From: Bacteroidota bacterium
GTDB taxonomy: Bacteria > Bacteroidota > Bacteroidia > B-17B0 > Aurantibacillaceae
Length of the DNA stretch: 64,000 nt
Direction: 5' to 3'
Assembly: GCA_021155905.1 (NCBI GenBank)
Contig: JAJNBG010000008.1
Span: 1-64,000 of the forward strand
Shown here: positions 6,768-48,003 of the stretch, in pieces
Layout of the letters: each line of letters opens with the position of its first letter
Position numbering within the stretch: the stretch's first letter is position 1
The notes under the pieces: model-generated
Seen by the model: the letters and a program-made list of their open reading frames with translations, nothing else
Database searches by the model: none
What the model was told of the DNA's origin: nothing
Made by a program: the position numbers and the translations under genes

Positions 6768-7237
6768 AACTTTTTGTCTTGATACAAAAAGTTAACAAAA
6801 AGATCAAGGCTTATTAAAATATAGCTAAAATCTACGCGGCATCAAGCTGATGCTTTGAAAGCGCTTCGCGAACAGCCCAAACCATCTACGCGCATGCTCC
6901 CGCCTTTTGATACCGCTTGATTTATACGCTAAATTTTAATAGGCCATCAATACCTAGCCAGATCTTCATCATTCTATTGTAAGATATAGATGTGCTATAA
7001 AAAACCTGACAGCATAGTACTAGCACCTCTATCATACGTTGGTAATAGTGCGGCTGGTTTTGGCGAAAGAGTGCGGGGCTGAGCGTTGAGAAAATGTTCA
7101 GTGAACATTTTTAGCGAAGAGCCAGCATGTGTGTAGTTTTTTTCACTCCGTTTCCCGGGCCGCCTTGCGCGCAAAAAATGGCGGTTGGTCTTTCGCCTTG
7201 ATTTTTTTGTTACTTTTTTCATCAAGGAAAAAAGTAA
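6768..7237. repeat. mosaic inverted-repeat element R1 (arms epsilon and beta)
   Basis: Between convergent genes. The left end is a shared-stem module: AACTTTTTGT/ACAAAAAGTT (6768-6777/6784-6793) competes with CTTGAT/ATCAAG (6778-6783/6803-6808). Next is an arm type seen only here (epsilon, bounded by TTATTAAAATATAGC and GCTAAATTTTAATAGG). The core, with GTAAGATATAG, starts near 6979. The beta arm follows (AAAAAATGGCGGTTGG at its distal side). The right end is again a shared-stem module: CCTTGA/TCAAGG (7196-7201/7222-7227) against TTACTTTTTT/AAAAAAGTAA (7210-7219/7228-7237). No outer GATAC hairpin is seen at either end. ORFs here are by-products of the arms. Confidence 0.75.
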
Positions 7238-7326
7238 ACTAAAGATCCTTTTGGATTCACGCCATGGCGTGATTGCAAAAGGATCAGATGATGTTTTCAA
7301 TAAGAAAATGAAAATTGATTTTTCGG

Positions 7327-7350
7327 TTCTCGACTACGCTCGAACTGACA
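7327..7350. repeat. short dispersed CTCGA..TCGA-type repeat
   Basis: TTCTCGACTACGCTCGAACT and following bases. Diverged relatives lie at 18416-18440, 32563-32584, 40498-40521 and 54092-54115. All carry a CGACTnCGCT or AGCGnAGTCG centre next to GTGAC/GTCAC. They are a second, shorter repeat class, separate from the large mosaic elements. Confidence 0.55.
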
Positions 7351-7371
7351 AATCAGGTGATCGTCACCTGA

Positions 7372-9324
7372 TTAAATCCCTAACTTCCTTCTGCACTTCC
7401 AGATCAATACAAGATCTTTTTCAATGCTATAATCTTTAGCATACCGCAAATTAGCAAGCTTGATTTTATTGCTATCCACGTCCGGAGGTAATAATAAAGA
7501 AGGTGACAACACGGAACGCTTGATCTCCGGCAGTGATTTATCGGATACTTTGCCGTAACCTACCCAGGAATAAAATCCGAATAAGACATTGAAACAATTG
7601 ATAAAATAATTTTTCTTGTTGTCCTGGATAGGCAACAAAAGGGGACTAAAGAAAATAGCCAGCACGCTAATACCAATATCCAGCAAACGTTTATTACGGC
7701 GGTTCTTGGATTTAGAAATACTGTTCACATCAATCATGTACAAATCACCGGCCGTATCAATGTTATTACTTCCAATGATGGACAGACTTTCCGGTGGCGC
7801 AATTTTAAAATCAACGCCACTGGAAACAAGTGTGAGCATGTTATTGATGATGAACTGTGAACTGATATCCTTGGCACAGAAAATAATTTCATTGATCTGG
7901 TGTACTTTAATAATCTCATCAATTTGATTGATCTTACCAATGTAATGAGGATTGTGAACCCCGTTGATCTCTGCACTTACAAAACCAACAAAGCCTGGAT
8001 TCGCACGCGTTTCTTTGAGCAGGGCGGATACACGGTTAAATTCCTGTTCCTCCCCGATAATGGCAATGCGCTTAGTTTTAGCACTGCTTAAACTATATGA
8101 CTTTAATTTCAAAATGTGGAAGAGTAAACGCGTCACGACAAAGCAAATCAATGCCCAACTGGTTCCTAATAGAATTAAAGCCCTTGAAAATCGCAGGTAC
8201 TCCGGCAATAACGAATAACCCAACAAAATAAAGATGGTTCCCACCAACACGCCACGGATGATCCTCAGCAACCTGATTGGTTTATCGTATCCACCGTTAA
8301 AGTATACCATGATGATCCAGGCAGTGGCGTATAAAGGAAACGCGACACTCAATAACTTCTCTGAATAGATATTACCGTCGACACCGGTGTTTTGCTGATA
8401 TATATTTTTGATGGCAAATAATCCAAGGGTAATGACTGTAAAGTCGAGAATAGGAACCGTAAAAGCTTTAAAGAATCTTGACAATAAAGCAATGCCTGCC
8501 TTCAGAAAAATAGCCAGGTGAATCATGGCATTGAACCAGAAAGCATGTGAACCACTGAAATGTTTCTTGGAAAAAATAGCCATGGCTTTGTAAAAAATCA
8601 CCACGTAATTTAAGCTGCTGCGCTTGGTACTCTCTCCTTTATAATGAATAATCTGTGTATCCGGGAAATAATAATTCTTATAGCCGGCTTTCTTAATACG
8701 GTAAGAGAGGTCAATATCTTCCCCATACATAAAAAATGTTTCATCCAGTAAGCCAATCTGATCCAAAACCGATTTGCGCATGAGCATAAAAGCGCCACTC
8801 ATCACATCAATCTCGTTGATTTGATCTTCGGGTAAATAAGACAAGTGATATTTTCCAAAGCGTTTTGATTTCGGAAAAAACCTTGAAAAGCCAAACATTT
8901 TATAAAAGGCCACTTCCGGTGTGGGGAGGCCTCGTTTAGACTCCGGGGCAAAATTCCCCTGTCCGTCCAGCATTTTCACACCCAATCCCCCTGCTTCGGG
9001 GTGAGCATCCATAAAAGCAAGTATTTTTGTAAAGGTATCCTCCTGTACCACAGTGTCGGGGTTCAGGAGTAACACATATTCGCCCTTTGCCACACGCAGG
9101 GCCTGATTATTAGCCACAGAGAAACCGGTATTGGTTTTATTGACAATCAGGTTGATTTGCGGAAACTTTTCTTTGATGAGAGTAACAGATCCGTCTACGG
9201 AGTTATTATCCACTACAAAAACCTCGCATTCAAAGCTTTCGGAAGCCTTTAATACAGAAAACAAACACTGTTCTATAAAGTGCTTGACATTGTAGTTTAC
9301 AATAACAACGGATAGTTTAGTCAC
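7372..9324 (-). CDS. membrane glycosyltransferase family 2 protein with C-terminal sugar-transferase-like region
   Basis: 650 aa. Residues 1 to about 240 form a GT2 domain of the rhamnosyltransferase (WbbL) type: VVIVNYN near the start, VVDNNS, the LLLNPDT acceptor/metal region, and the MYGEDIDLSYRIKKAG motif. Several membrane segments follow (about 260-410). Then comes a Rossmann-like stretch (RIAIIGEEQEFNRV). Finally there is a segment starting NKRLLDIGISVLAIFFSPLL, which resembles the beginning of polyprenyl-phosphate sugar-phosphotransferases. The rest of that domain is short and lacks recognisable catalytic motifs, so it is probably degenerate. Likely role is building cell-surface polysaccharide at the inner membrane. 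Single gene, with the tRNA upstream. Confidence 0.75.
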   Translation of the reverse strand: MTKLSVVIVNYNVKHFIEQCLFSVLKASESFECEVFVVDNNSVDGSVTLIKEKFPQINLIVNKTNTGFSVANNQALRVAKGEYVLLLNPDTVVQEDTFTKILAFMDAHPEAGGLGVKMLDGQGNFAPESKRGLPTPEVAFYKMFGFSRFFPKSKRFGKYHLSYLPEDQINEIDVMSGAFMLMRKSVLDQIGLLDETFFMYGEDIDLSYRIKKAGYKNYYFPDTQIIHYKGESTKRSSLNYVVIFYKAMAIFSKKHFSGSHAFWFNAMIHLAIFLKAGIALLSRFFKAFTVPILDFTVITLGLFAIKNIYQQNTGVDGNIYSEKLLSVAFPLYATAWIIMVYFNGGYDKPIRLLRIIRGVLVGTIFILLGYSLLPEYLRFSRALILLGTSWALICFVVTRLLFHILKLKSYSLSSAKTKRIAIIGEEQEFNRVSALLKETRANPGFVGFVSAEINGVHNPHYIGKINQIDEIIKVHQINEIIFCAKDISSQFIINNMLTLVSSGVDFKIAPPESLSIIGSNNIDTAGDLYMIDVNSISKSKNRRNKRLLDIGISVLAIFFSPLLLPIQDNKKNYFINCFNVLFGFYSWVGYGKVSDKSLPEIKRSVLSPSLLLPPDVDSNKIKLANLRYAKDYSIEKDLVLIWKCRRKLGI

Positions 9325-9453
9325 AGGCTATAAAGTTCTAAAAATAACAAAATATTGTGAAAACCGAAGATTTTAAAAAAGTAACTATTAGTATGAAAAA
9401 AAACAGTAAATTCGCATTCCAATTTCAGATGTAATGATTTTTACCCTGAATCT

Positions 9454-9527
9454 GGTCCCGTAGCTCAGCTGGATAGAGCAACAGCCTTCTAAGCTGTGGG
9501 CCATTGGTTCGAATCCAATCGGGATCA
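9454..9527 (+). tRNA. tRNA-Arg (anticodon TCT)
   Basis: Full cloverleaf. Acceptor GGTCCCG (9454-9460) pairs with CGGGATC (9520-9526), with discriminator A9527. The D arm is GCTC..GAGC. The anticodon stem is ACAGC/GCTGT (9481-9485/9493-9497) with loop CTTCTAA, giving anticodon TCT, which reads AGA/AGG. The T arm contains GGTTCGAATCC. CCA is not encoded. Confidence 0.96.
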
Positions 9528-9551
9528 CTCCTAAAGTTTAGGAAACTTTGA

Positions 9552-9577
9552 AACCTCAGTATTTACTGGGGTTTTTT
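9552..9577 (+). terminator. intrinsic terminator after tRNA-Arg
   Basis: Stem AACCTCAGT/ACTGGGGTT (9552-9560/9565-9573, one G-T pair), four-base loop ATTT, then a T-run. It lies 24 bp after the tRNA. Confidence 0.8.
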
Positions 9578-9791
9578 GTTATCTGTACTTATCGTTGATA
9601 AACTGTTGGGTAAAAATGATAAGTGAATTGCACAAAACACTTGCATATTACCAAAATTGTCTTATTTTTAATGGGCAAATTTTTTTAATATTTCCATAAC
9701 GTTGATGATATCTTCACATACTATTTTTACGCGAATCTTACATGACATAGTTTTAAAAGCTTTTGGGCCATCAACCCGATTGGTTCTTTGT

Positions 9792-9799
9792 TATGTTTG
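9792..9799 (+). promoter_or_regulatory. -7 promoter element
   Basis: TATGTTTG matches TAnnTTTG, 15 bases before the ATG of the small exported protein at 9815. Confidence 0.45.
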
Positions 9800-9814
9800 C
9801 CAAAAAAATAAACA

Positions 9815-10237
9815 ATGAAAGTTATATTCCTGATTCTTAGTTTCATATTTACACTTTTTCCTAACAACGAAAAACTGGATAACTGCAATGGTATCGACCG
9901 TTTCATTTTTGGTACGCCCAAAGAACAATTCAAGAACATTACCTTAGAACTGGAACAAGGCAATGCGCAATTGTACACGATGAATCCGGAGGCCATGAAG
10001 ATCCCCGGTGTACAGATAGAGGACCTGAGAATATCATTTATTAAAAACAAGCTTTCTGCAATATCTCTTAGTACAAAAAATGCATCCGGGGCAGCCCTTT
10101 TTAAATATTTAAAAGAAACCTATGGAGCTCCTACCAAAAACAAAAACCAATTTGAATGGATTGGAAAACGAGCCTCTATTATGCTTGAGTTATTCAAGAA
10201 CAACAAAGACGCAGCCGTTGATGTTTACAGTAAATAA
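9815..10237 (+). CDS. hypothetical small exported protein
   Basis: 140 aa, not recognised. The N-terminus MKVIFLILSFIFTLFP looks like a signal peptide without a lipobox Cys, so a periplasmic protein is likely. The mature part starts with CNGIDRFIFGTPKEQFKN, followed by an alternating alpha/beta pattern with ISFIKNKLSAISLSTKN and a C-terminal FEWIGKRASIMLELF. A TAnnTTTG box lies upstream. It converges on the FMN reductase gene with only 25 bp between stops and no visible terminator. Confidence 0.65.
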   Translation: MKVIFLILSFIFTLFPNNEKLDNCNGIDRFIFGTPKEQFKNITLELEQGNAQLYTMNPEAMKIPGVQIEDLRISFIKNKLSAISLSTKNASGAALFKYLKETYGAPTKNKNQFEWIGKRASIMLELFKNNKDAAVDVYSK

Positions 10238-10262
10238 CTCACTGTAAATCGATCCTTAAAAA

Positions 10263-10820
10263 TTACACCCTTACCGTTTTTAATGCCGTACCCCAACTTA
10301 TCACCTGATCGATCAGTTTGTGCAGGTGTTTTTCATGATGCTCTGTTGGCTTAAATACGGTGTAATGTTCAAAGTCCCGGTCGGTATAAAGCAATACCTG
10401 TGCATGCACATTAGCCATTTTCAATTCTGTAGCAATACCCCGAAGATGCTCCACCGCCCTGGATCCGCCAACCGATCCATACGAAACAAATCCTGCCACT
10501 TTATTGTTCCACTCGGCATACACAAAATCCAGCGCGTTTTTTAAAGCCGCGCAGGTACTATGATTGTACTCAGGTGTTACAAAAATAAAAGCGTCGAAGG
10601 TGCCCACTTTTTCCGCCCATTTTATCGTATGTTCGTTTGCATATTTGTGGCGGGAGGGCGTGATAGGTTCATCCAGTAAAGGCAGGTTCTGATCCCTGAG
10701 ATCTATCAATTCAAACTCCGCCCCTCCTTTTGCTTTTGCTGTTTCGTAGGCCCATTTGGCAACGCCTTCACCTATCCTGTTCGGACGGGTACTTCCCAAT
10801 ATGATTGCAATCTTTATCAT
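10263..10820 (-). CDS. NAD(P)H-dependent FMN reductase family oxidoreductase
   Basis: 185 aa flavodoxin-like protein. The FMN phosphate-binding loop GSTRPNRIGEGVAKW lies near the N-terminus (about 9-23). The flavin-ring motif PEYNHSTCAALKNALD lies near 84-99, and YGSVGGSRAVEHLRG follows. This matches the NADPH-dependent FMN reductase/azoreductase-like family (PF03358), which reduces FMN or quinones with NAD(P)H. The physiological substrate cannot be told from sequence. Length is normal and it stands alone on the - strand. Confidence 0.85.
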   Translation of the reverse strand: MIKIAIILGSTRPNRIGEGVAKWAYETAKAKGGAEFELIDLRDQNLPLLDEPITPSRHKYANEHTIKWAEKVGTFDAFIFVTPEYNHSTCAALKNALDFVYAEWNNKVAGFVSYGSVGGSRAVEHLRGIATELKMANVHAQVLLYTDRDFEHYTVFKPTEHHEKHLHKLIDQVISWGTALKTVRV

Positions 10821-11205
10821 AATCTGTTATTTAAGTTCTTCTTATATCCTTTTCAAAATTAATCAGGAATCATTTTTCTATGTTACACGTTTTTAAAGAG
10901 AATGTCTTTGTATCATTTGTATAAAATAAAATTTAAAAAAAACATGTAAGGATTTGCAATGTTTAATATTCGCAATAACACCAGGTTTGATTGCCAGAAA
11001 AAAAATGCATAGAAATTTCTGCGCCAGTCATAGTAAAAAGTTCGCTGGAAAATTCCACTCAAAAGCACAAGTTACAAAAGCGTTATATCAAATACACATA
11101 GGGCTATGCTTCGCCCGATATTACCGAAAACTTAGGCAAATGCGATGATCACGATAGTAACTTTACATCAAAGAACAAGAGTACTAAGAACTAAAGAACT
11201 GAATC
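10821..11205. other. intergenic region without recognisable feature
   Basis: 385 bp, AT-rich on the reductase side. A 64-codon ORF at 10954-11148 has no signal peptide, motif or plausible family and is not called. No RNA gene, repeat or terminator is seen. Confidence 0.6.
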
Positions 11206-11463
11206 ATGGCACTAGATATTAATATGTTTTATTCCTGCACCGTTGAAGAACGGCTGGAAATCATCAGCGACAGCGGTGAGTACATTAACAGCATCAAACA
11301 CTTCGGATACTATATTCACCTGTACACAGCAGAAGGCGACTTTATAGAAATTTATTACAACATCGACACCAACGAAATAGAAGATGTGGAAATCCTGGAT
11401 CCGGACAATGAACGCTTAAACTGGTTTGCCATTGCGGTCGATATATCGGATTTGTACAGATAG
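11206..11463 (+). CDS. hypothetical acidic small protein
   Basis: 85 aa, not recognised. No signal peptide or membrane segment. It is strongly acidic (many Asp/Glu) with alternating hydrophobics such as YYIHLYTAEGDFIEIYYN, which suggests a small beta-rich cytoplasmic protein. It ends 18 bp before the next gene on the same strand, so the two are probably co-transcribed. Confidence 0.6.
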   Translation: MALDINMFYSCTVEERLEIISDSGEYINSIKHFGYYIHLYTAEGDFIEIYYNIDTNEIEDVEILDPDNERLNWFAIAVDISDLYR

Positions 11464-11481
11464 AGAAAGCTGTCCCCTTGT

Positions 11482-11892
11482 ATGAAACCCAAAGCAAATA
11501 TCATTACTTTCCAAACTCCTTTGGCATCCTGTTGGCTAGAGGGTAAAACCCTCTGCATATCTTCAAACAATCTCCCTCGTACAAAAGAAAATATCCGTGA
11601 ACATTACCAGGTCCTGAAAGGCATCGTCAGGAGAAAAGTTTGCTGGATGCTTCACTTCGAAACCTGCCAGAACTTTGATGAGGAAGTGAGTGCTGTAATC
11701 GATGAGGAACTTCCACGCATCTGTACCTGCATTGCCATCATCGCTAAAACAGATTGCGAAAAATTAGCTGCCAGCTATTTTCAGCAATTTAAAAAGGTAG
11801 GGATTCCAGTGAAACTTTGTGAAAGCGAGCGGGAAGCTAGGGTTTGGCTAAAGCGTTTGGATAATCAACGGCGCGGGATTTCCAAAGCATAA
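11482..11892 (+). CDS. STAS-like small protein, paralogue of the pair at 56.5-57.4 kb
   Basis: 136 aa, no signal peptide. It shares layout and several positions with the two proteins at 56491-56874 and 56981-57364: a start of about 20 residues, a central alpha/beta part, a hydrophobic strand (CTCIAIIAKT here, KSCAIITNS there) followed by a helix, and an end with a charged patch before xxWL (REARVWLKRL). The length and secondary-structure pattern resemble SpoIIAA/STAS-like small domains (DUF7793-type); this is inference. Function unknown. Probably in operon with the upstream acidic protein. Confidence 0.6.
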   Translation: MKPKANIITFQTPLASCWLEGKTLCISSNNLPRTKENIREHYQVLKGIVRRKVCWMLHFETCQNFDEEVSAVIDEELPRICTCIAIIAKTDCEKLAASYFQQFKKVGIPVKLCESEREARVWLKRLDNQRRGISKA

Positions 11893-11990
11893 AGCTTTGG
11901 AACAATTTTAACTTATTTTCTTTGTTCTAAATGCAATGTTCGAATGTTTCAGATTCCGAGAGATATCAGAACGTATATGCACTTGTTCCT

Positions 11991-12630
11991 GATACTTTTG
12001 GACTTCGGCACGCTCAGTCACCGAGTATCCAAAACTTATTCTTTCTATTCTTTTTCATTGATGAGGGCAATTGTGCAGTGCACAATTGAGCCAGGCTGTG
12101 GATGGAGTAAGCAAAAAAGTCAAGTCAAAACGATCTCCCCGCGCTCTTTTCTTTTTTGAGATTCGCAACCACAAGAGGAAGATACTTTTTGAAAAAGTAT
12201 CCAAAAGCGATTTCCTATTTTCTTTTTGCTTGAACAAAAGAAACAAAAATTCAAGTCAAAACGATGTCCCCGCGCTCTTTTGATTTTTAAGTTTCGCTAC
12301 CAAAAGAGAACTAAAGCTCTTTTGGGCTCAACTAAAATAATCAAAATTTACAGCTTATCCGCCGCCGCGTTTTGACAGGCCAACCCCCTTTCAAGTCGAA
12401 ATTTTATATGAGAGATTGTGCTGCGGTATGCTGTCGGAGTTTACTGTACATCTATATCTCACAAGAGCATGATGAACATTTGACTTATAATGGTGCGTGG
12501 ACGTGAACGAACGGTGCGAACTACAATTTTTTTGCGAGTTCTTGCGCTGTGCGTCCCAAAAAAGATTGGAGTTGGCGTTCGTTCTTGACTTTTTTGATTA
12601 CTTTTTTCGTCAAGGAAAAAAGTAATGTAA
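11991..12630. repeat. mosaic inverted-repeat element R2 (arms gamma and alpha, extra head)
   Basis: Begins with an outer hairpin GATACTTTT..GAGTATCC whose loop carries a CTTCGGCACGCTCAG repeat. A partial head follows with a 21-base palindrome, stem CAATTGTGCA/TGCACAATTG (12068-12077/12079-12088). A second outer hairpin lies at 12181-12201. The gamma arm runs between GTCAAAACG near 12255 and CGTTTTGAC near 12368. The core is inverted near 12449-12471. The alpha arm (AACGAACGGTGCGAACT, then AGTTGGCGTTCGTT) ends in a shared-stem module: CTTGAC/GTCAAG (12584-12589/12609-12614) against ATTACTTTTTT/AAAAAAGTAAT (12597-12607/12616-12626). It lies between co-directional genes. Confidence 0.75.
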
Positions 12631-12691
12631 AAGATCAGCGATTATTAAAAGCATTACACCGAAAACAAAAAACGACAGTATGTTTTATCTA

Positions 12692-12699
12692 TAACTTTG
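12692..12699 (+). promoter_or_regulatory. -7 promoter element of the cation efflux gene
   Basis: TAACTTTG matches TAnnTTTG. A transcript starting about 7 bases downstream would contain both candidate starts (12715 and 12754). Confidence 0.5.
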
Positions 12700-12753
12700 G
12701 TAAAAAACTAACGCATGAGACAGTTAGTGTTATTATTGTTTAACAAACAAAAC

Positions 12754-13650
12754 ATGGCGCATGATCATGCACATCATATTCCGGCGGGGCGTTCACTGAA
12801 CACAGCTTTTGTGGTGGGTATTATTTTAAATTCCGTTTTTGTGATTATTGAATTTGCCACCGGTTTCTATACCAATTCACTCGCACTGCTTTCAGACGCC
12901 GGACATAATTTAAGTGATGTGGGTACCCTGGCCCTATCGCTCTTTGCGTTTCAAATGACCAAACAAAAAGCAAGCGCCACCTACACCTACGGTTTTCATA
13001 AAGGCACCATTCTGGCATCACTGGCAAACGCTGTCATTTTGTTGATCGCTGTGGGAAGTATCGGCTGGGAAGCCATTCAGCGATTCATGACGCCCGAAGA
13101 AACACAAGGAAATATAATTAGCGCTGTAGCCGGCATCGGTATCATCGTGAACACCGTGTCTGCTTTCATGTTTTTTCGCGATAAGGAAAAAGACCTCAAT
13201 GTGAAAGGCGCCTACTTACATTTGGCAGTGGACGCCCTCGTGTCTATCGGTGTGGTTATTGCCGGTTTCCTGATTTCCTATACCGGACTTAAATGGATTG
13301 ATCCACTCATCAGTCTGCTGATCATGGTGGTTGTACTTTACAGCAGCTGGGGTCTGCTCACCGAGAGCTTACGCTTATCCCTCGACGCGGTTCCAAAATA
13401 CATCGATCCGGAAAAAATCAAAAACAAACTCTTAAACATGAAAGGCGTAAAGGATATTCACCATATCCACATCTGGGCAATGAGCACCACCAAAAATGCC
13501 ATGACCGCGCATTTGCTTCTCCACGAAGGTCTTTCAGAAAAAGATATTGCCGATCTTAAACACCAGGCCAAACATGAACTGGAGCATCTCAATATTCAGC
13601 ATGTGACCTTAGAGACTGAGGTTAAGGTTTGTGATGATGAAGATTGTTAA
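12754..13650 (+). CDS. cation diffusion facilitator (zinc/cadmium/cobalt efflux) transporter
   Basis: 298 aa from the chosen start MAHDHAHH. An upstream in-frame ATG at 12715 would add 13 residues that do not fit the family. Six transmembrane helices. Metal-site residues are HxxxD in helix 2 (H51, D55 in HNLSD) and in helix 5 (H156, D160 in HLAVD). A C-terminal cytoplasmic ferredoxin-like domain (about 210-298) is His-rich. The N-terminal HDHAHH may bind metal. Family role is proton-coupled export of Zn2+ or similar ions across the inner membrane. Metal specificity is not decided by sequence. The gene is preceded by mosaic element R2. Confidence 0.92.
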   Translation: MAHDHAHHIPAGRSLNTAFVVGIILNSVFVIIEFATGFYTNSLALLSDAGHNLSDVGTLALSLFAFQMTKQKASATYTYGFHKGTILASLANAVILLIAVGSIGWEAIQRFMTPEETQGNIISAVAGIGIIVNTVSAFMFFRDKEKDLNVKGAYLHLAVDALVSIGVVIAGFLISYTGLKWIDPLISLLIMVVVLYSSWGLLTESLRLSLDAVPKYIDPEKIKNKLLNMKGVKDIHHIHIWAMSTTKNAMTAHLLLHEGLSEKDIADLKHQAKHELEHLNIQHVTLETEVKVCDDEDC

Positions 13651-13734
13651 TCTTCATCTAATAAATTTTTCTGATTTTTCTCCTTGATACTTTTTGCAGC
13701 CTTAGAACTAACTTTCTGTCCTCATATTTTTTAA

Positions 13735-14178
13735 GATACTTTTTGCAGCCAAAAAGTATCCAAAAAGCTTATGATTTTGTGATAGGCAATTTTTGGATGC
13801 CGTTATCACTCCATCCAAAACCGCTGATAAAAGCAACCCGCTTGCGCATGCCGACCCTTCGTTGCTCTTACAGCTATTGCTGCACAAAATCATAGTCCCA
13901 CACCTGATGTTCATCATGCTATTGTGAGATATAGAGGTGCTATAAAACTCCGATCAAAGTTTTACTTTTTAATTAAACGTCCAATGCTGCTGTAAACTTC
14001 CGACAGCATAGTGCGGGGACGTGAACGAACGGTGCGAACTACAATTTTTTCGGGAATCCTTGCGCTGTGCGCCCCGAAAAAGATTGGAGTTGGCGTTCGT
14101 TCTTGGTTTTTTGGTTCTTTTTCATCAAGGAAAAAGAACATAACGAATAAGCCTTTGGATACTTTTCGCAAAAGTATC
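13735..14178. repeat. mosaic inverted-repeat element R3 (arms delta and alpha)
   Basis: Clean element with both outer hairpins: 13735-13761 (GATACTTTTTGCAGCC then AAAAAGTATCC) and 14158-14178 (GATACTTTTCGCAAAAGTATC). The delta arm is bounded by TATGATTTTGTG and CACAAAATCATA. The core GTGAGATATAG begins at 13924. The alpha arm has AACGAACGGTGCGAACT and AGTTGGCGTTCGTT. The right shared-stem module is GTTCTTTTTC/GAAAAAGAAC (14114-14123/14130-14139) against CTTG/CAAG (14102-14105/14126-14129). It sits between convergent genes. Confidence 0.8.
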
Positions 14179-14285
14179 GTTCTCGTTTTAGTAGCGAGCC
14201 TTATAAATTTAAGGAAGCGAACCTCCGCGCGTAATTTTCAATAAATGAGACCCTGAATCCGCCAGCTGGCGGACAGGGTGACGCA

Positions 14286-14320
14286 ATAAAGAAAGCCCGG
14301 ACAAACCGGGCTTTCTTTAT
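14286..14320. terminator. bidirectional terminator
   Basis: Perfect 13-bp stem AAAGAAAGCCCGG/CCGGGCTTTCTTT (14288-14300/14306-14318) with a five-base loop. It lies just beyond the stop of the - strand esterase gene. Confidence 0.75.
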
Positions 14321-14337
14321 AATAATAAAAAGAAAAT

Positions 14338-15663
14338 CTATTTAAAAATCACCTTCTGTGTTGTAGAAGCCCCTGACTTATCCGAAACTTTTAAGAAATA
14401 TAATCCCGCGGAAAGATTATTCTTTTTAATACGGTAAGAAGTATTTTCGGTAACATCCGATGAAATGGTTTTACCTGTTATGTCTACCAATTCAATACGG
14501 TGTGTGGTGTTGGAATTGGAAAACTCAATGGTCATTTCATTGTCTGATGGATTTGGATACACGGACGAAATAACAGCGTTAGTACTTAACTCCGAAATGC
14601 TTACAAAACCGGGAGAAGCACAGGTCATGACAACATTAGCCGTGCAGGTTGTGTAGGAATACAAGTTGGCAGTTTGTGCTGTGGCATTTTGTGGTAATAA
14701 TGGTGCATCGCCGCAGGTTAAATTAGAAACCAAAAAGTCACGGATAAACTTCACGGTAGAATCCATGTAAAGTGTTGAGGAATTAAAAGGTACATGGTCT
14801 TTGCCATACCAGGTATAAAAAGGATTGTTGATACCAATCGCATTGGCATGCTCTTTCAACATACGGCTACCATCCAAAACAATTAAGGGCTGACCCAATG
14901 GTGCTGCCAGACCACGGTTATATTTTACAGTCCCGTCAATCGTACCATGCATGGACACAAAAGGAACATCACCCGGTTCAATCCATCCGTATTTTCCCAA
15001 AGCTCCGCATAAATTAATGACACCTTTTATTTTAGCTGAGTAACATTGATTTCCGCTGTATCCTTCCATCCCTCCAAGGGTTGTCAGGGTACTAGGGTTC
15101 ACGTAGTAATTTACTTCACAGGATTTATTCAGGTAAGCTGTGTGCAAAGCCGTGATGGCTCCTGCAGAGCTTCCACCGATAAAAATACTATTGGTATCAA
15201 TTTTATAGGTATTGGTAGTTAAACGGTCTTTGTAGAAAAAGCGAATAGACGCTTTCATATCCTGTACTGCTCTCAACACCGCTTTCACCGCTCCGGTTGA
15301 ATCAAATGGCGTTAAACCTAAACGATAATTAATAGACACACACACAAATCCTTTCTTCGCAAATTTCTGGGAAAGTGCTACCATATCCGCATCTGTTTTG
15401 GAACCTCCAATGAAACTTCCACCATGTGCCCAGATGATTAGGGGACGAGCCGTTTCCAAATCTCCGGTCGGCTGGTACACATCCATCGTTAACGATTGAG
15501 TAGTACCACTCGCTGTAGTATTTGAACCAAATACAATGTTACTGGACGTTGTATAGGCCGTAAACGTATCTGCGGCATACCTTCCGGTGGCACAGGGCGA
15601 TTGAGCACTCATCCATCCGGCGGATGCTAATAAGGTTAAAGAGAGTAAGTAGATTTTTCTCAT
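14338..15663 (-). CDS. secreted alpha/beta hydrolase (esterase) with T9SS sorting domain
   Basis: 441 aa. Signal peptide at 1-20. The catalytic domain is a carboxylesterase/BD-FAE-like alpha/beta hydrolase: oxyanion motif HGGS (80-83), nucleophile S166 in GGSSAGA, and a late His in GKDHVPF. The final ~75 residues are a T9SS type A domain (VYPNPSDNEMTIEFS..., ending STTQKVIFK), so the enzyme should be exported to the surface or medium. The substrate is an ester, not further defined. A terminator follows; the GDSL gene upstream is separated by 91 bp, so co-transcription with it is possible but not shown. Confidence 0.85.
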   Translation of the reverse strand: MRKIYLLSLTLLASAGWMSAQSPCATGRYAADTFTAYTTSSNIVFGSNTTASGTTQSLTMDVYQPTGDLETARPLIIWAHGGSFIGGSKTDADMVALSQKFAKKGFVCVSINYRLGLTPFDSTGAVKAVLRAVQDMKASIRFFYKDRLTTNTYKIDTNSIFIGGSSAGAITALHTAYLNKSCEVNYYVNPSTLTTLGGMEGYSGNQCYSAKIKGVINLCGALGKYGWIEPGDVPFVSMHGTIDGTVKYNRGLAAPLGQPLIVLDGSRMLKEHANAIGINNPFYTWYGKDHVPFNSSTLYMDSTVKFIRDFLVSNLTCGDAPLLPQNATAQTANLYSYTTCTANVVMTCASPGFVSISELSTNAVISSVYPNPSDNEMTIEFSNSNTTHRIELVDITGKTISSDVTENTSYRIKKNNLSAGLYFLKVSDKSGASTTQKVIFK

Positions 15664-15754
15664 GTTGTTTAATTTAGGTTATTATAAATTTAATAAAATA
15701 AATTAAAGCACAAAGGCATTTCGACCAATTCAGAAGATCGCGTGACGAAATTTA

Positions 15755-17071
15755 CTATGGAAAAATAACGGCCGGATATTTCATGGCATTGGTTTCGGGA
15801 ATGGTTGAACCATACTGCGTGTTAATGGCTTTAATGAATTCATTGGCCAGTAAAGCATTTCCGCGTGGTGTTAAATTTAAACCATCCAGTGAATAGAAGC
15901 CTCCGGAAACAAATGCAGCGTTCACGGCCACACCGTTATACATGTATCCCGCTTTTACTTTCGCGAAGAAGCCATTCACATCCACAAAAGCCAGTCCTTT
16001 CGCATTGGCGATATTTCTTAAAATGACATTGTAAGAGTTGATGGCATCCTCGATGGAATCTATTTCAGAAAGAGTTAATGAATAGCGGTCGGGTATCGGA
16101 TTCAGGGATCCCCATTTATGACATTTGATGGAGTCCAAGGGAACGTTCAGTAAAATGAGTTCTCCGGCCACGGCTTGTCTGAAACCTAAAAAAGGATTTT
16201 TGGAATCCATGATCATGAAGCCGTTATCGCCTTCATAAAAAGTGGTACCGTCCAGGGCGGAGTAAAAGCTGGTGAGGTTAGTCGCAGAAGTAGCATCCAG
16301 TTTCAGGGCGTTCCAGGCGATGGTATTAAAATAGGCCATGCTGCGGATACTCGGGATATTGGCGATCACACCTTTGGAACCATTGGCGCTTAGCTGATCA
16401 ATCACCTGGTTGATACTGGCTTCGAAACCAGTACCTACTGCACCGGCAACAGGTGTCAGGCTTTCAGACGCGGCACCCTTTAAGGCAAAGCTTAACGCAT
16501 CATTCACTCCTAACATCACCGAAAAGAAAGTCGCGTTTTTAGCCACGGCATCGGACAGTACAGATGAGGATGCACTGGAAGACATGCGCTGATAAAATGG
16601 ATTGGTATAACCGGATACAGTCGCATCAATCACCTTCATGTCCGGAACACCCATGTTGTTGAAAGGACCCTGGTTATAGACGTTGGTAGAAAAAACCGAT
16701 GCATCTCCCTGCGTGGCAATTTTCACCGGACCCAAAGACACTGCACCCAAACAATCGGTGCGATCTCCCAGTTTGGAAGGCGCGTTATTGGTATTACCCA
16801 CACCGATAGAAGCAGGCGATACGTTAGGAATTTTAAAGTCTCCACCGCCCACTAGTTTTAATTGTTCGGCGAGGATAGCAGCATAGGAATTCTGTTGTAC
16901 ATCGTAGTACAAGGCACCATTGGCATACCCCGCCGTCATGGAAGAACCCAGGGCCACATAGTTAGAAGCGTCAATGTCACCACCGTCGGCTTCGGGGGTA
17001 TCAAATTTTGGTTTGCAGGAGGTGAGGATTCCCAGGCCCAGCACTATAAAAGAGAATTGTTGAAATGTCAT
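15755..17071 (-). CDS. SGNH/GDSL hydrolase lipoprotein
   Basis: 438 aa lipoprotein with lipobox LTSC (Cys19). Block I is GSSM with S44 as the expected nucleophile (GDSL in the classic form). The GxND block is present as LGVNDAL. The last block reads LDGLNLTPRGN: the Asp is present, but the position where the SGNH triad His usually sits (DGxH) is Asn. Either another His serves or activity is changed. It starts 11 bp after the FadL-type porin gene, so the two form an operon, probably for hydrolysis and uptake of lipids or esters at the outer membrane. Confidence 0.8.
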   Translation of the reverse strand: MTFQQFSFIVLGLGILTSCKPKFDTPEADGGDIDASNYVALGSSMTAGYANGALYYDVQQNSYAAILAEQLKLVGGGDFKIPNVSPASIGVGNTNNAPSKLGDRTDCLGAVSLGPVKIATQGDASVFSTNVYNQGPFNNMGVPDMKVIDATVSGYTNPFYQRMSSSASSSVLSDAVAKNATFFSVMLGVNDALSFALKGAASESLTPVAGAVGTGFEASINQVIDQLSANGSKGVIANIPSIRSMAYFNTIAWNALKLDATSATNLTSFYSALDGTTFYEGDNGFMIMDSKNPFLGFRQAVAGELILLNVPLDSIKCHKWGSLNPIPDRYSLTLSEIDSIEDAINSYNVILRNIANAKGLAFVDVNGFFAKVKAGYMYNGVAVNAAFVSGGFYSLDGLNLTPRGNALLANEFIKAINTQYGSTIPETNAMKYPAVIFP

Positions 17072-17082
17072 GTTCTTGTATT

Positions 17083-18312: not shown

Positions 18313-18415
18313 AGAATTAAATTTTAATAGAGATAAATGTACTAAAATGTTTGAATAGTAAAAGTATTGGTCAGGCTGAACTTGATTCAGCATCTGTTCT
18401 TTTCATGCTGAAACT

Positions 18416-18440
18416 GTCACATCGAGCGGAGTCGAAGTGC
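18416..18440. repeat. short dispersed CTCGA..TCGA-type repeat
   Basis: GTCACATCGAGCGGAGTCGA and following bases, a relative of the copy at 7327-7350. It sits just outside mosaic element R4. Confidence 0.5.
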
Positions 18441-18463
18441 AGAATCTCTTTATTTTTTATTTA

Positions 18464-18889: not shown

Positions 18890-18924
18890 ATAAAGAAGTC
18901 AGAGATATTTAAGTATCAGTAAGG

Positions 18925-19404: not shown

Positions 19405-19525
19405 AGCAATAGGGGTTTAAAACAGGAATAAATATAGGGGATTTTGCTTGTAAAATACAACCGGGAACTGGTAGAAAGAACCATAAAAATTAATAAGATA
19501 ATGTTACATAATTCACAGGAAAGCT

Positions 19526-33447: not shown

Positions 33448-33478
33448 AAAGGTCCTCCAGCAATGGAGGACCTTTTTT
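33448..33478 (+). terminator. intrinsic terminator
   Basis: Perfect 12-bp stem AAAGGTCCTCCA/TGGAGGACCTTT (33448-33459/33464-33475), GCAA loop, then T-run. The A-run upstream allows bidirectional action. Confidence 0.92.
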
Positions 33479-39832: not shown

Positions 39833-40308
39833 GATACTTTTGAAAAAGTATCCAAAACTTAGCTTCTCTTTTTCTTTTTGCTTGATCAAAAAGAAACAAA
39901 AAATCAAGAACGAACGCCAACTTCAATCTTTTTAGGGGCGCACAGCGCAGGAACTCCCTAAAAAATTGTAGTTCGCACCGTTCGTTCACGTCCACGCACC
40001 ATTTGCAGGCAGAAATTTTCAATGCTTTCGTGAGATATAGGTGAATAACAAATCTCCGGGCCTTTTAGCACTTCTCTCTCATAAAATTTCCGATCGGAAA
40101 GCGCGGAGACCGGTCAAAACGCGGAGGCGGATAAGCTGTGAATTTGTATTTATTAGATGAGCCCAAAAGAGCTTTAGTCCTCTTTTGGAGGCGAATCTTA
40201 TAAATACAAAGAGCGCCGGGACATCGTTTTGACTTGATTTTTTCGTTCTTTTTCATCAAGGAAAAAGAACATAGAAAAGCGGTTTTGGATACTTTTTCAA
40301 AAAGTATC
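39833..40308. repeat. mosaic inverted-repeat element R7 (arms alpha and gamma)
   Basis: Both outer hairpins are present: 39833-39852 (GATACTTTTGAAAAAGTATC) and 40288-40308 (GATACTTTTTCAAAAAGTATC). The left shared-stem module pairs TTTCTTTTTG/CAAAAAGAAA against CTTGAT/ATCAAG. The alpha arm has AACGAACGCCAACT and AGTTCGCACCGTTCGTT. The core GTGAGATATAG lies at 40030-40040. The gamma arm lies between GTCAAAACGCGG and CGTTTTGACTTGA. The right module is GTTCTTTTTC/GAAAAAGAAC (40245-40254/40261-40270) against CTTGAT/ATCAAG (40233-40238/40255-40260), with no free bases between. Confidence 0.8.
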
Positions 40309-44779: not shown

Positions 44780-45232
44780 GATACTTTTGCGATCCCGGTA
44801 GCTTTCGGGAGTATCCAAAAGCGTTCTTCTTCTTACTTTTTTTCTTGATAAAAAAAGTAAGCAAAAAAATCAAGAACGAACGCCAACTCCAATCTTTTTT
44901 GGGACGCACAGTGCAAGGACTCCCAAAAAAATTGTAGTTCGCACCGTTCGTTCACGTCCCCGCGCCATCTACAGTCAGAAATTTCTTATACAATTGTAAG
45001 ATATAGATGAGCTAAAAACTCGCGTGGCATAGCGCTAGCACCTCTCTCATACGTTGGTAATAGTGCGGCTGGTTTTGGCAATTCGGTGCGAACTGCCATT
45101 TTTTTACTCCGTTTCCCGGGCAGCCTTGCGCGCAAAAAATGGTAGTTGGCGAATTGCCTTGATTTTTTGTTTCTTTTTCATCAAGGAAAAAGAAAAAAGA
45201 GATTAAGTTTTGGATACTTTTTCAAAAATATC
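44780..45232. repeat. mosaic inverted-repeat element R8 (arms alpha and beta)
   Basis: The outer left hairpin at 44780-44815 has a CCCGGTAGCTTTCGGG loop, a variant of the 16-base palindrome. A shared-stem module with CTTACTTTTTTT/AAAAAAAGTAAG follows. The alpha arm has AACGAACGCCAACT and AGTTCGCACCGTTCGTT. The core GTAAGATATAG begins at 44996. The beta arm runs from GCAATTCGGTGCGAACTGCC to GGTAGTTGGCGAATTGC. The right module is TTTCTTTTTC/GAAAAAGAAA (45170-45179/45186-45195) against CCTTGA/TCAAGG (45157-45162/45181-45186). The outer right hairpin ends at 45232. It lies between co-directional genes. Confidence 0.8.
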
Positions 45233-45322
45233 GTCCTTGCCCTTGACTAGAAAAAAGTAACAGAAAAATAGTTCACGATATGAGTATCCGGTATTTTTAT
45301 ACCTTTAATAAAAATACCACTG

Positions 45323-47482
45323 ATGAACCCAATCGAATTTAAACCTTCCAAAACACTCAATGTTCTTGTGTGGTTAGCGATCATACCATCTTTAATAGGG
45401 GAATTTTTTAAAGTCATGCATTGGCCGGGCGCGGGACCGCTGATGATTCTGGGAACATTTGTGTTTGCGTTCATGTATCTTCCGTTATACATAATTGAAA
45501 GCTGGAAGACCAAAGAAACAACAAAGTCAAAACTGATGTTGATCTCAAAAGGGTTAGTTGTCCATCTTTTTTCCCTGGGATTTTTATTCAAGATCCAGCA
45601 TTGGCCAGGGGCCGGCATCCTTTCACTTGCTAACAACTATCTCTTGTTTTTTGTTATTGTTCCGTTTGCTTTATATCATTTAGCTAAAGCCGGCAAAACC
45701 AGTCTTACACAAACTCATTCCATCCTCATTGTGTGCTATTTCTTCAGTCACATGCTGAGTGCTCTTTTAAATTCCGGATCAGGCAGGGTTAACATCGACA
45801 CCGTTCTTCAACAGGGATTAAACACCGAAGAGGCGTTGAGAACCGCTTCGTCCCGAAACAAACAATTATATGCGACACTGAATAATATCCAAATCGATGA
45901 AAACAACGCCATTAAATACAAAGCAAAAAAAGTAAAGACTCTTACCGATTCTGCAGTCAACCATATTAAAAACCTAAAGGCACATTTATTAATCAGTATC
46001 GATAAAATTCCGAAGTCAAAAGCCGACAGCCTCTCCTCCATTGATATTGAAAATAAAGTCAACGCTGACATTACTACCATGATTCTGATTGGTAACGAAT
46101 TTAGCCCTAATAAAGATATTCACTCAGCTTTAAAATTAAAGTCAGTCATTAACACCTACAGGGATTCTTTATTAAGCCTGGTGCAGGAACAAAACCGGGC
46201 CATCATGAAAGAAGGTTTGAATCTGAGCACGGATAATTACACCAGCGAGGACGGAGAACCGGTAAGCTGGGAAATGACCAATTTTAATTTTATGCCCTTG
46301 ATTTATGTCTATAATCTCCTCACCAATATAGAGTATGAAATTAAAAATGCAGAATACCAGGCACTCACAGATATTATCAATTCCGGAAACAAAGAATTGA
46401 ACACGGCCCTCTTCAGCCAGATTTCAGAACTCAACTCAAAATATGACGCAGCAAAGAAACAGGAAGAAATCGCGAAGCTGCAAACCGAAAACGAAAGAGG
46501 CATGAAATTATTGAATGCCAAAGACATGGAATTGAGTGATTCTAAACAAACCATTATCTATTTTACGCTTATCATCATGGTGTTCTTTTTACTGGTGTTT
46601 TTTGTGATACGAAGTAATTATCTCAGGAAACAAACCAACAAAACACTCCTGCAACAAAAAGAAATCATTGAAACTCAGAAAACGGAAGTAGAGAATCAAA
46701 AACATCTTGTGGAAGAAAAACAAAAAGAAATCATTGATAGTATTTCTTATGCCAGGCGTTTACAGGAAGCTATTTTACCTCCCCGGGAATTTTTAAATAC
46801 TTATGTGCCTGACAATTTCATTTACTACAAACCTAAGGACCTGGTTGCCGGCGATTTTTATTGGGCAGAAAGTATTGGTGACCTGTTTTTTATTGCCGCT
46901 GCTGACAGCACAGGACACGGGGTACCGGGCGCCATGGTTTCCGTGGTTTGTTCAAACGCTTTAAACAGAACAGTAAAAGAATTTGGATTAACCGAAACAG
47001 GTAAGATCCTTGACAAAACCAGGGATCTGGTCGTACAGACCTTTGAAAAAAGTACCAGTGAAGTGAAGGACGGGATGGACATCTCTTTATTATGCATCGA
47101 CTCCAAAAACAAAAAAATTACCTGGAGCGGAGCCAATAATCCTTTGTGGTATATTTCTCCTTTGGATGGGGATGTTATACTAAAACAAATCAAAGCCGAT
47201 AAACAACCAATTGGTAAAACTGATTATCCAAAACCATTTACCACACATGAGATTGAATATAAAACCAACACTACCTTTTATTTATTCACGGATGGTTTCG
47301 CAGATCAGTTTGGCGGTCCCGATGGTAAAAAATTTAAATACAAACAGTTTTCTGAGCTGTTGATCAATAATCAAACACTCAGCTTGCCAGAGCAATCCGA
47401 TTTTCTAAACGGCGTATTTGAGAACTGGAAGAAGGACCTTGAACAGGTGGATGATGTTTGTGTTATTGGCGTTAGGGTTTAA
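45323..47482 (+). CDS. SpoIIE-type PP2C phosphatase with GldL-like membrane domain
   Basis: 719 aa. The N-terminal membrane domain has two helical hairpins, each with the same motif: FKVMHWPGAG (29-38) and FKIQHWPGAG (89-98). This motif resembles the transmembrane region of GldL, the T9SS/gliding motor protein. Two more hydrophobic segments follow at about 100-150. A soluble, mostly helical sensor-like region spans about 170-400, and one more membrane helix (about 412-434). A coiled coil and a SpoIIE-type PP2C Ser/Thr phosphatase domain (SISYARRLQEAILPP, GDFYWAE, DSTGHGVPGAMVS, ANNPLW, LFTDGFADQFGG) complete it. It probably signals from the membrane to a partner-switching pathway. Confidence 0.82.
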   Translation: MNPIEFKPSKTLNVLVWLAIIPSLIGEFFKVMHWPGAGPLMILGTFVFAFMYLPLYIIESWKTKETTKSKLMLISKGLVVHLFSLGFLFKIQHWPGAGILSLANNYLLFFVIVPFALYHLAKAGKTSLTQTHSILIVCYFFSHMLSALLNSGSGRVNIDTVLQQGLNTEEALRTASSRNKQLYATLNNIQIDENNAIKYKAKKVKTLTDSAVNHIKNLKAHLLISIDKIPKSKADSLSSIDIENKVNADITTMILIGNEFSPNKDIHSALKLKSVINTYRDSLLSLVQEQNRAIMKEGLNLSTDNYTSEDGEPVSWEMTNFNFMPLIYVYNLLTNIEYEIKNAEYQALTDIINSGNKELNTALFSQISELNSKYDAAKKQEEIAKLQTENERGMKLLNAKDMELSDSKQTIIYFTLIIMVFFLLVFFVIRSNYLRKQTNKTLLQQKEIIETQKTEVENQKHLVEEKQKEIIDSISYARRLQEAILPPREFLNTYVPDNFIYYKPKDLVAGDFYWAESIGDLFFIAAADSTGHGVPGAMVSVVCSNALNRTVKEFGLTETGKILDKTRDLVVQTFEKSTSEVKDGMDISLLCIDSKNKKITWSGANNPLWYISPLDGDVILKQIKADKQPIGKTDYPKPFTTHEIEYKTNTTFYLFTDGFADQFGGPDGKKFKYKQFSELLINNQTLSLPEQSDFLNGVFENWKKDLEQVDDVCVIGVRV

Positions 47483-47518
47483 CAGAAATATTTAGCATCT
47501 CCTAATATTCTATTTCAT

Positions 47519-48003
47519 GATACTTTTGCGAAAAGTATCCAAAAGCGTTTTTATTTGTTCTTTTTCCTTGATGAAAAAGAACCAAAAAATCAAGTCAAAA
47601 CGATGCCCGCGCGCTCTTTGTATTTATAAGATTCGCTGCTAAACGAGAACTAAAGCTCGTTTAGGCTCATCTAAATAAATACAAATTCACAGCTCGTCCG
47701 GCGCCACGTTTTGACAGGCCTCCGCGCTTTCCAGTCGAAATTTTATAAGAGAGATGTACTAGCGCTATGATATCAGAGTTTTATAGCACATCTATATCTT
47801 ACAATTGTATAAGAAATTTCTGACTGCAAATGGCGCGGGGACGTGAACGAACGGTGCGAACTACAATTTTTTAGGGGTTCCTGCGCTGTGCGCCCCTAAA
47901 AAGATTGGAGTTGGCGTTCGTTCTTGATTTTTTTGCTTACTTTTTTTATCAAGAAAAAAAGTAAGATAAAAGATGCTTTTGGATACTTTTTTGCAAAGGT
48001 ATC
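47519..48003. repeat. mosaic inverted-repeat element R9 (arms gamma and alpha)
   Basis: Both outer hairpins are present: 47519-47539 (GATACTTTTGCGAAAAGTATC) and 47982-48003. The left shared-stem module pairs GTTCTTTTTC/GAAAAAGAAC against CTTGAT/ATCAAG. The gamma arm lies between GTCAAAACGATG and CACGTTTTGAC. The core is inverted near 47800-47815. The alpha arm has AACGAACGGTGCGAACT and AGTTGGCGTTCGTT. The right module is CTTACTTTTTTT/AAAAAAAGTAAG (47936-47947/47954-47965) against CTTGAT/ATCAAG (47923-47928/47948-47953). It lies between convergent genes. Confidence 0.8.

Follow-up and report, generated by a model that had tools for sequence, protein, structure and literature searches.

A family of modular palindromic DNA elements with unlike hairpin arms in Bacteroidota

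Nine intergenic regions (R1 to R9) in the window, by which we mean the whole 64-kb stretch of Bacteroidota DNA that was analysed, belong to one family of non-coding, chromosome-borne, modular mosaic DNA elements of Bacteroidota. Their unit is a half-element made of an outward 40-nt stem and then one long hairpin arm (types A to F), and half-elements stand alone or, in most cases, form pairs of two unlike arms joined head to head around a core, GTRAGATATAG. As to their nature we lean, with about as much confidence as doubt, towards non-autonomous palindromic DNA elements of REPIN-like layout but hetero-armed, which would be kept as folded DNA and moved by a trans-acting factor.

A shared plan with two unlike arms

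All nine regions were located, and their common parts are stem, arm, core, and outer hairpin. Chance is excluded as the source of these shared parts: the window has 24 occurrences of GATACTTTT, where shuffled sequences have 1.0, and 10 of the core with 1 mismatch allowed, where they have 1.55. Genome-wide, the stem pattern has 36 matches (reversed-pattern control, 0), and arm types could be assigned in 23 two-armed copies, in addition to which there are single-armed and broken copies. The original prediction of a single modular mosaic family is thereby upheld, in that the parts recur together and on the same plan in these 23 copies rather than being rare or independently scattered, despite a few single half-elements. 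It had also held that the same parts follow inverted after the core, which is true of stem and outer hairpin, to which inverted symmetry in R1 to R9 is limited, but not of the arms: arm types differ within the copy in all nine regions and in 23 of 23 typed copies (E-C, B-A, D-B, D-A, D-C, and B-C among them), while random pairing would be expected to give 4.8 same-type pairs (P of finding none = 0.003). Folded as single-stranded DNA, R9 has a z-score of -18.2, and none of 100 shuffled sequences is equally stable. Copies of an arm within this genome are only about 70-97% identical to the reference copy of that arm, so that present activity of the elements finds no support.

R1 (6768-7285) carries the core-oriented pair E-C, with a stem at 6778-6808, arm E at 6807-6950, the core at 6965-7002, arm C in reverse at 7032-7197, and a stem at 7197-7226; both of its outer hairpins had been thought missing, but a variant right one, GATCCTTTT...AAAAGGATC, lies at 7244-7285. 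R2 (11991-12630) and R6 (34831-35551) are compound: each has, on its left side, another outer hairpin together with additional pieces of stem and arm. R2, a B-A pair with its core on the minus strand, starts with an outer hairpin and a partial arm A (11991-12166), followed by the second outer hairpin (12181-12201), arm A (12255-12381), the core (12434-12478), arm B (12495-12588), and a stem (12584-12614). R6 pairs arm D with a B/C chimeric arm: after the outer hairpin at 34831 come a stem with an inserted palindrome near 35030-35100, a stem at 35158-35185, the chimeric arm to 35278, a weaker second core (35309-35319), the core (35334-35379), arm D (35382-35525), and an outer hairpin (35527-35551).

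Three further regions also contain arm D. The D-B pair of R3 (13686-14178) comprises a split outer hairpin (13686-13760), arm D (13762-13905), the core (13908-13953), arm B (14013-14105), and an outer hairpin (14158-14178), and the D-A pair of R4 (18464-18889) an outer hairpin GTCAC..GTAAC, arm D (18491-18634), the core (18637-18680), arm A (18715-18846), and a right stem reaching 18889. R5 (33513-34042), a D-C pair with the core on the minus strand, has an outer hairpin from 33513, a stem (33576-33605), arm C (33605-33752), the core (33825-33870), arm D (33873-34015), and a right hairpin to about 34045. In R4 and R5, the D end has GTCAC/GTTAC in place of GATAC.

R7 (39833-40308) is a B-A pair with an outer hairpin (39833-39852), stem (39881-39908), arm B (39903-39997), core (40030-40040), arm A (40103-40233), stem (40233-40260), and outer hairpin (40288-40308). 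The B-C pair of R8 (44780-45232) has a stem (44844-44874), arm B (44869-44965), core (44993-45021), arm C (45046-45157), stem (45158-45185), and an outer hairpin from 45213. R9 (47519-48003), again B-A with the core on the minus strand, runs through an outer hairpin (47519-47539), stem (47567-47594), arm A (47594-47725), core (47773-47805), arm B (47833-47928), stem (47923-47953), and outer hairpin (47982-48003). Between R8 and R9 stands a 719-aa gene (45323-47482, plus strand) of a large paralogous family, too multi-copy for placement by itself.

Paired changes in stem and arms

The stem as well as arms A and D carry compensatory changes beyond shuffled controls. In the stem, a helix S1 has a loop, CTTGAN, that is complementary to a downstream NTCAAG, with an A-tract as linker, and judged by this pairing the 40-nt stem would be a pseudoknot-like double helix. 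Over all 58 distinct stems, 511 of 522 S1 pairs are Watson-Crick and none is G-T (partner-shuffled, 375; maximum, 402), and the sixth S2 pair, the other S2 letters and five As being preset by the search pattern, is Watson-Crick in 56 of 58 (T-A, A-T, or C-G; shuffled, 26; maximum, 38), with the best of 4 offsets taken per stem, which favors the observed pairing figure. A subset of 50 stems that leaves out 8 imperfect ones reaches 450 of 450 pairs. Since the length of S1 and that of the linker show a mixed correlation in 56 stems (Pearson -0.24; Spearman 0.38, P = 0.004), we do not use it as proof of a pseudoknot.

In arm A, 97.2% of cells are paired and 59 two-sided changes compare with 18 in shuffled and at most 9 in slid controls; for arm D, the corresponding values are 95.8% and 26 versus 8 and at most 6. 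One-sided (G-U) changes are few (2 in arm A, 3 in arm D), and we therefore lean towards pairing in DNA, or template switching, rather than RNA for these two arms. Counting against this are arm B, with 11 one-sided versus 9 two-sided changes and a commonest G-U pair, and two mostly G-U pairs in arm D, one of them constant in 12 of 12.

Sites among genes and in sister species

The placement of the elements is biased to gene ends, as 15 of the 29 assignable sites in the genome lie between convergent, 12 between co-directional, and 2 between divergent genes (15:2, P = 0.002). A divergent placement had been claimed for some of R1 to R9 as well, and none could be assigned among them; ORFs were called mechanically for this purpose, and R5's right neighbor is a spurious frame inside R6. 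At one site, an element end lies inside a coding gene and has taken the place of the last codons of pyrF: the gene stops at the element with about 28 last codons gone, which are intact in the related genomes G007, G009, and G014 and were not found in the 2.6 kb beyond the element.

Siting behind stop codons, mostly away from divergent promoters, would suit elements that act mainly as RNA, that is, as bidirectional terminators or stabilizing structures at gene 3' ends, as would the T-runs outward of the arms, the use of G-U in arm B and two arm D pairs, and the strand sense and A-rich linker of the stem, which are those of a plausible RNA pseudoknot. We nevertheless hold such a main role to be quite improbable: the two halves are oppositely oriented, the stem and arm A have few or no G-U steps, and a simple scan of positions 5400-19500 gave a slight excess only (20 versus 13.4, sd 3.1). 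Moreover, separate terminator-like hairpins stand beside R1, R3, and R5, and the same gene ends in relatives lack the element, in agreement with the earlier view that the elements are not simply terminators, although they may have a terminator side effect. The gene between R2 and R3 is found in 4 of 20 genomes, this one included, and no element was seen beside its orthologs in G017 and G006.

Among 30 own sites, 14 have no comparable place and one pairing, that of R7 by a 71-aa frame, was judged spurious and dropped. The remaining 15 have their flanks together in G007, G009, or G014, and 13 of them are empty in at least one relative (E08, E10, E20, E22, E23, E216, E217, E218, E222, E83, R1, R8, and R9), while E21 and E224 keep element pieces there. 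The comparison of orthologous spacers thus yielded the empty sites that had been proposed as a check but not the target duplications: element ends are inverted, no duplication was seen by eye, and neither it nor the exact junctions can be read because the empty-site spacers are too diverged. At the spot syntenic to R1, G007 lacks the element together with the neighboring gene (5448-6659), and R8, the gene at 45323-47482, and R9 are jointly missing from the syntenic spot in G007 and G009; no arm occurs in 30 kb of G007 covering the spots syntenic to 0-18 kb and 40-54 kb of the window. With the comparison limited to sister species, gain rather than loss would be the simpler reading only at sites that are empty in every one of two or three relatives (R8/R9 and E217).

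Three shared sites carry different arms across species. The flanking genes of E08 are syntenic on both sides (82% and 84% amino acid identity), and core, arm B, and stem align; the left arm is of type E in this genome but of type F in G009. Where this genome has E-B at E83, G009 has F-A in reversed orientation, and the B-C of E224 corresponds in G009 to B together with C and F.

Reshuffling of this kind might need no dedicated enzyme, if old palindromes were spread and rearranged only by host processes such as gene conversion, unequal crossing over, and template switching at hairpins during replication. Paired bases change jointly in blocks, which is what the template switching in imperfect palindromes described in PMC7202029 and PMC8604942 would produce, and such switching could account for the two-sided block changes inside hairpins. 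There is also a direct tandem array of a D-A element in G007 (491-bp period, 2.2 copies), some copies, R3 among them, have half-hairpins joined to other stems, and stems cluster locally, with 11 of the 36 genomic matches inside the 41 kb of R1 to R9 (binomial P ~6e-14). Template switching is, however, a mutation process that does not by itself place sequences at new sites, and lone half-elements stand behind unrelated genes where the compared relatives are empty (E217, E218, and E222). The same stem, moreover, recurs in many Bacteroidota genera, among them Pedobacter, Mucilaginibacter, and Aquimarina. Lone halves at relatives' empty sites and a stem shared by many genera suggest dispersal to new sites, and we regard host processes alone as possible but rather unlikely.

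Known families and the question of an enzyme

A loose stem pattern has matches in 217 of 395 genomes across the phylum, a figure that we do not take as prevalence since many low counts equal the reversed control. R9 matched none of 72,556 plasmid and 50,697 phage records, and one exact stem 35-mer had no match among viral contigs. No Rfam family reaches its gathering score inside the elements (the window's two hits, a tRNA and Flavo-1, lie elsewhere), nothing came near that score at four element loci (best E 0.058), and the literature searched, largely open-access papers, held no description of such elements, which bears out the impression that no named family fits.

As a rule, the interspersed palindromes of bacteria are short, have a single type per element, and are associated with a RAYT. 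PMC3116915 describes REPINs as two palindromic units in inverted order with a predicted fold in single-stranded DNA. Our elements resemble these REPINs and BIMEs in being interspersed, non-coding, and extragenic and in occurring as inverted unit pairs, with singlets beside doublets (PMC3116915), but their half-units of about 200 nt versus 20-40 nt make them much longer, as had been noted at the outset, they combine two unlike arm types per element, and their stems as read have no GTAG foot. According to PMC6006769, the subclass 2.6 RAYTs of Bacteroidetes have "atypical secondary structures" on their flanks, of which further copies lie at other places in the genome, a likeness in phylum and in unusual repeated structures. 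Where loci of this genus and family encode subclass-2.6-like proteins, the palindromes beside them are short ones such as CACCTGTCAGGTTTTAAAACCTGACAGGTG instead of our stems and arms, a comparison made within the genomes examined here.

The elements could accordingly be REPINs of a RAYT (TnpA-REP, Y1 HUH) that was lost from the genome or missed by the assembly. Presence of the element (judged by R9 matches, 5 candidates scored per genome) and of PF01797 is positively associated in 119 relatives, of which 46 have both, 11 the element only, 36 Y1 only, and 26 neither (odds ratio 3.0, P = 0.01, relatedness and genome size uncontrolled). The count of 11 is too high, because G024 holds a weak subclass-2.6-like gene that the PF01797 cut-off of 0.001, which misses some such genes, did not catch. 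Set against this, PF01797 has no match at E<=0.001 in this genome or G007, and at E<=1 this genome has one, at 0.09 and with no readable Y1 frame, and G007 and G027 have none, yet both carry element matches. The absence here is uncertain, as the assembly is 93.9% complete and a gene could be missing. Furthermore, none of 30 strong and 28 weaker PF01797 loci carries stem or arm within about 1.5 kb per side, contig permitting; these 58 are a sample of more places found, with many of the weaker ones arising by chance and one being the match in this genome. Four of the weaker loci strictly match published subclass 2.6 motifs and bear other, short palindromes. Movement by a RAYT, as first suggested, is thus disfavored, and we consider it very unlikely.

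A reverse transcriptase as part of a retro-element was rejected (PF00078, 0 genome matches at E<=0.001). The search for a shared transposase gave no candidate at the stem itself: in 115 named loci (pieces of up to 8 kb), frame clusters at the stem are spurious frames of the arms, and larger clusters lie at scattered distances from it.

MITEs and PATEs are non-autonomous, several hundred bases long, and have inverted ends and palindromes, all of which our elements share, for PATEs as they are generally described. Differences are that here no autonomous parent was found, no target duplication was seen, and the arms are unlike both within one copy and, at a given site, between species. PATEs are the palindrome-associated elements of Haloquadratum (PMC3119063).

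The arms also obey a side rule, with D, E, and F on one side of the core only, A and C on the other only, and B on either. It is kept in 23 of 23 typed own copies and in six typed copies of relatives with a readable core (D-A twice and E-C in G007; F-B twice and F-A in G009). Such handedness would fit modular DNA recombination between handed half-sites, in which a conserved Bacteroidota enzyme would read the pseudoknot-like stem in single-stranded DNA, swap arms at the core, and carry neighboring genes, a scenario that we think unlikely. Copies that depart from the plain plan are one in G012 (L355) in which F adjoins a 30-nt D fragment, the G007 pieces L367 and L369, both of type D and in direct order, and a three-arm element in G009.

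If the elements are instead non-autonomous and moved in trans, as we favor, a DNA enzyme would recognize the folded single strand (or a cruciform), most likely a single-strand nuclease or transposase other than the Y1 genes examined. It would insert halves or pairs, mostly behind stop codons, and arms would later be exchanged between copies by recombination or template switching via the shared stem and core.

In sum, a stem motif that recurs across the phylum heads long, covarying, exchangeable hairpins that stand in unlike pairs. An enzyme that moves them would recognize a pseudoknot-like fold in DNA; if there is none, the family would be a clear natural record of palindrome-driven reshuffling. 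In either case the sister species offer a direct test bed, since they have the same sites with the element, without it, or with other arms.

Anatomy, arm pairing and gene context

The original prediction that nine regions share common parts (R1 to R9, within window 6768-48003) was borne out when all nine were read: they share the named parts. A two-armed element consists of two half-elements joined head to head at the core GTRAGATATAG, and each half comprises, from outside to inside, an outer hairpin (GATACTTTT..AAAAGTATC), a stem and a single long hairpin arm. The window holds 24 occurrences of GATACTTTT, where 1.0 is expected, and 10 of the core, where 1.55 is expected. The commonest stem is NTTCTTTTTC-CTTGAT-GAAAAAGAAN-CAAAAA-ATCAAG, in which the loop closed by helix S1 contains CTTGAN; this pairs with a downstream NTCAAG (S2) in an H-type pseudoknot arrangement. 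The stems of R2, R6 and loci L023 and L026 hold small palindromes inside; insertions of about 50 bp in these unrelated copies are similar (window 12060-12115 and 35040-35100; L023; L026), three of them carrying a palindrome that resembles GGGCAATTGTG..CACAATTGAGCC and L026 a variant form.

A scan of the full assembly, 4.06 Mb in 67 contigs and 93.9% complete, gave 36 matches to the stem pattern and none to its reversed control; 11 of these stems lie within the 41 kb of R1 to R9 (P ~6e-14), and further ones are clustered on contigs C16, C19, C27, C30 and C50. An extended core pattern with at most one mismatch matched 30 times, seven times in unrelated sequence and once (L025) in a stem end. Altogether, 30 sites located via core or stem pattern were handled.

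Arm types A to F were recognised by reading and typed by blastn, F having first been met in the sister-species genome G009. The 23 typed two-armed copies of the genome comprise 5 B-A, 4 D-B, 4 B-C, 3 E-C, 3 E-B, 2 D-A, 1 D-C and 1 E-A pairs; R6 is one of the D-B copies, its B arm being a B/C chimera, and sites outside this set hold lone halves, fragments of chimeric make-up or damaged copies. Two arms of the same type never pair in one copy, where random pairing of these arms expects 4.8 (P = 0.003). When copies are oriented by their core, D and E are confined to the left and A and C to the right, with B on either side; if this side rule is retained, finding no B-B pair has by itself P = 0.014.

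By mechanical ORF calls, under which R5 is convergent only via a spurious frame, the 29 assignable sites lie between convergent (15), co-directional (12) and divergent (2) genes (15:2, P = 0.002). Separate terminator-like hairpins stand beside R1 (6669-6709), R3 (14286-14320) and R5 (33450-33478). Elsewhere in the window, a Flavo-1 RNA (RF01705; 737-817, plus strand; 51.9 bits, E 2.4e-8) directly follows an open frame at 47-742.

Covariation and folding

Stem covariation was assessed on all 58 distinct stems from the scanned loci, excluding from the named loci those with the exact 35-mer used for finding them. Of 522 S1 pairs, 511 are Watson-Crick and none is G-T, against 375 (maximum 402) with shuffled partners. 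At the sixth position of S2, 56 of the 58 stems hold a Watson-Crick pair, against 26 (maximum 38); the remaining S2 letters and an A-run were set by the search pattern, and each stem was scored at the most favourable of four offsets. In tallies that count related copies many times over, arm A (16 sequences) has 59 cells with two-sided changes, compared with 18 in shuffles and no more than 9 in slid controls, and 2 with one-sided changes. Arm D (12 sequences) has 26 two-sided cells, where shuffles give 8 and slid controls 6 at most, and 3 one-sided ones; arm B (16 sequences) varies little, its two-sided cells numbering 9 and its one-sided cells 11. Between groups of copies, arm D has an entirely different apical hairpin with pairing mostly retained. 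As single-stranded DNA, R9 folds at -122 kcal/mol (z = -18.2).

We read the element structure in these alignments as selected. Selection on RNA would account less well for the few G-U steps in the stem and arm A than would DNA pairing or template switching; this signal appears less clear in arms B and D, and one pair of arm D is G-U in 12 of 12 sequences and another in 9.

Filled, empty and differently armed sites in sister species

Neighbouring genes were placed in the sister-species genomes G007, G009 and G014 by searching joined flanking segments. G007 is syntenic over large parts of window 0-18 kb and 40-54 kb, and in 30 kb fetched from this region no arm matches at E<=0.001. Both G007 and G009 lack R8 and R9 along with the 719-aa gene between them, the flanking genes there lying about 60 and 88 bases apart, and R1 and the gene at 5448-6659 are missing in G007, leaving a spacer of 40 bases. 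The 719-aa gene (45323-47482), a predicted member of a much expanded paralogous family, has 54 matching places in its own genome at E<=1e-30. A three-gene block between R3 and R4 (14338-18393) is ordered the other way round in G007, which puts one end of a rearrangement close to these elements.

A paired-flank search at 30 sites left 13 usable and 16 without a pair, and the R7 pair was dropped because it rests on a 71-aa frame judged spurious; with R8 and R9, two pairless sites resolved via G007 synteny, 15 sites were comparable. Thirteen of these 15 are without element in at least one relative, and the other two retain pieces. Some flank matches at sites E83 and E21 are antisense frames of the true neighbour, which leaves the place unaffected. 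Site E217 is empty in three relatives (spacers of 13, 42 and 49 bases). Others carry different arms at one common site: E08 is E-B in its own genome, F-B in G009 and empty in G007; E83 is E-B, F-A in reversed direction in G009 and empty in G007; and E224 is B-C, a D remnant in G007, and in G009 B, core, an inserted stem with C, then F. At E08, flanking coding DNA is 78-92% alike and arm B 96%. B copies are about as alike between G009 and this genome as within it, so arm B may be constrained.

One element end cuts short a gene, presumably pyrF (orotidine-phosphate decarboxylase, judged from its sequence). At E11 (L219 2616-3374, contig C50) the frame runs into the element end and is shortened: in place of its last ~28 codons, which are intact in G007, G009 and G014 (L347, L348, L349), it has a short tail of element sequence. 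The missing codons were not found in the next 2.6 kb (best tblastn E 0.06).

Distribution and proposed movement

The exact stem 35-mer matched at least 115 stretches; among the matches listed are records titled Mucilaginibacter, Pedobacter, Sphingobacterium, Aquimarina, Aequorivita, Christiangramia, Cyclobacterium, Neolewinella, Parabacteroides, Chitinophaga MAGs and one Chlorobiota MAG. By eye, hairpin-like sequence of different letters follows it in most of 23 loci inspected, and L043, from a different genus (g9), combines A-like with B-like arms. An inverted second stem lies within 700 bases, by a strict pattern, at 5 of 115 listed loci (L106, L136, L143, L184, L193). R9 matched no plasmid or phage record, and the 35-mer no viral contig. 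G007 carries copies at other places, among them a tandem D-A array at a contig start (L361 1-1089, contig C21; 2.2 copies, 491-bp period) and others that depart from the plain plan. Several further G007 copies sit where contigs end; these repeats may therefore interrupt assemblies, and copy numbers may be undercounted.

The original prediction likened the elements to those moved by Y1 HUH transposases (PF01797), and this idea is disfavoured: no such transposase was found in the 93.9% complete genome. No reverse transcriptase was found there either. Within a sample of the Y1 places found, no stem or arm occurs at 30 strong loci of relatives or at 28 weaker matches with E up to 1, many of which are chance and one of which belongs to this genome; those read bear other palindromes. 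Across relatives, element and Y1 presence show a mild association, with relatedness uncontrolled. Seven Y1 proteins of the NH[FI]H..YIH[NK]NP type (L321, L323 to L326, L328, L341), adjoined by short palindromes of their own, score weakly against PF01797 (E 1e-7 to 0.02), and a cut-off of 0.001 misses two of them.

The nearest competing explanation is that the elements need no enzyme. Our reading is that they are non-autonomous, that selection acts on their folded DNA, and that a putative factor would move or copy them. The data themselves show the anatomy, covariation, hetero-pairing, turnover and differing arms at a shared site. We infer that the factor would be an enzyme with a single-stranded substrate and that the direction was gain rather than loss; arms would be exchanged between copies by recombination or template switching.
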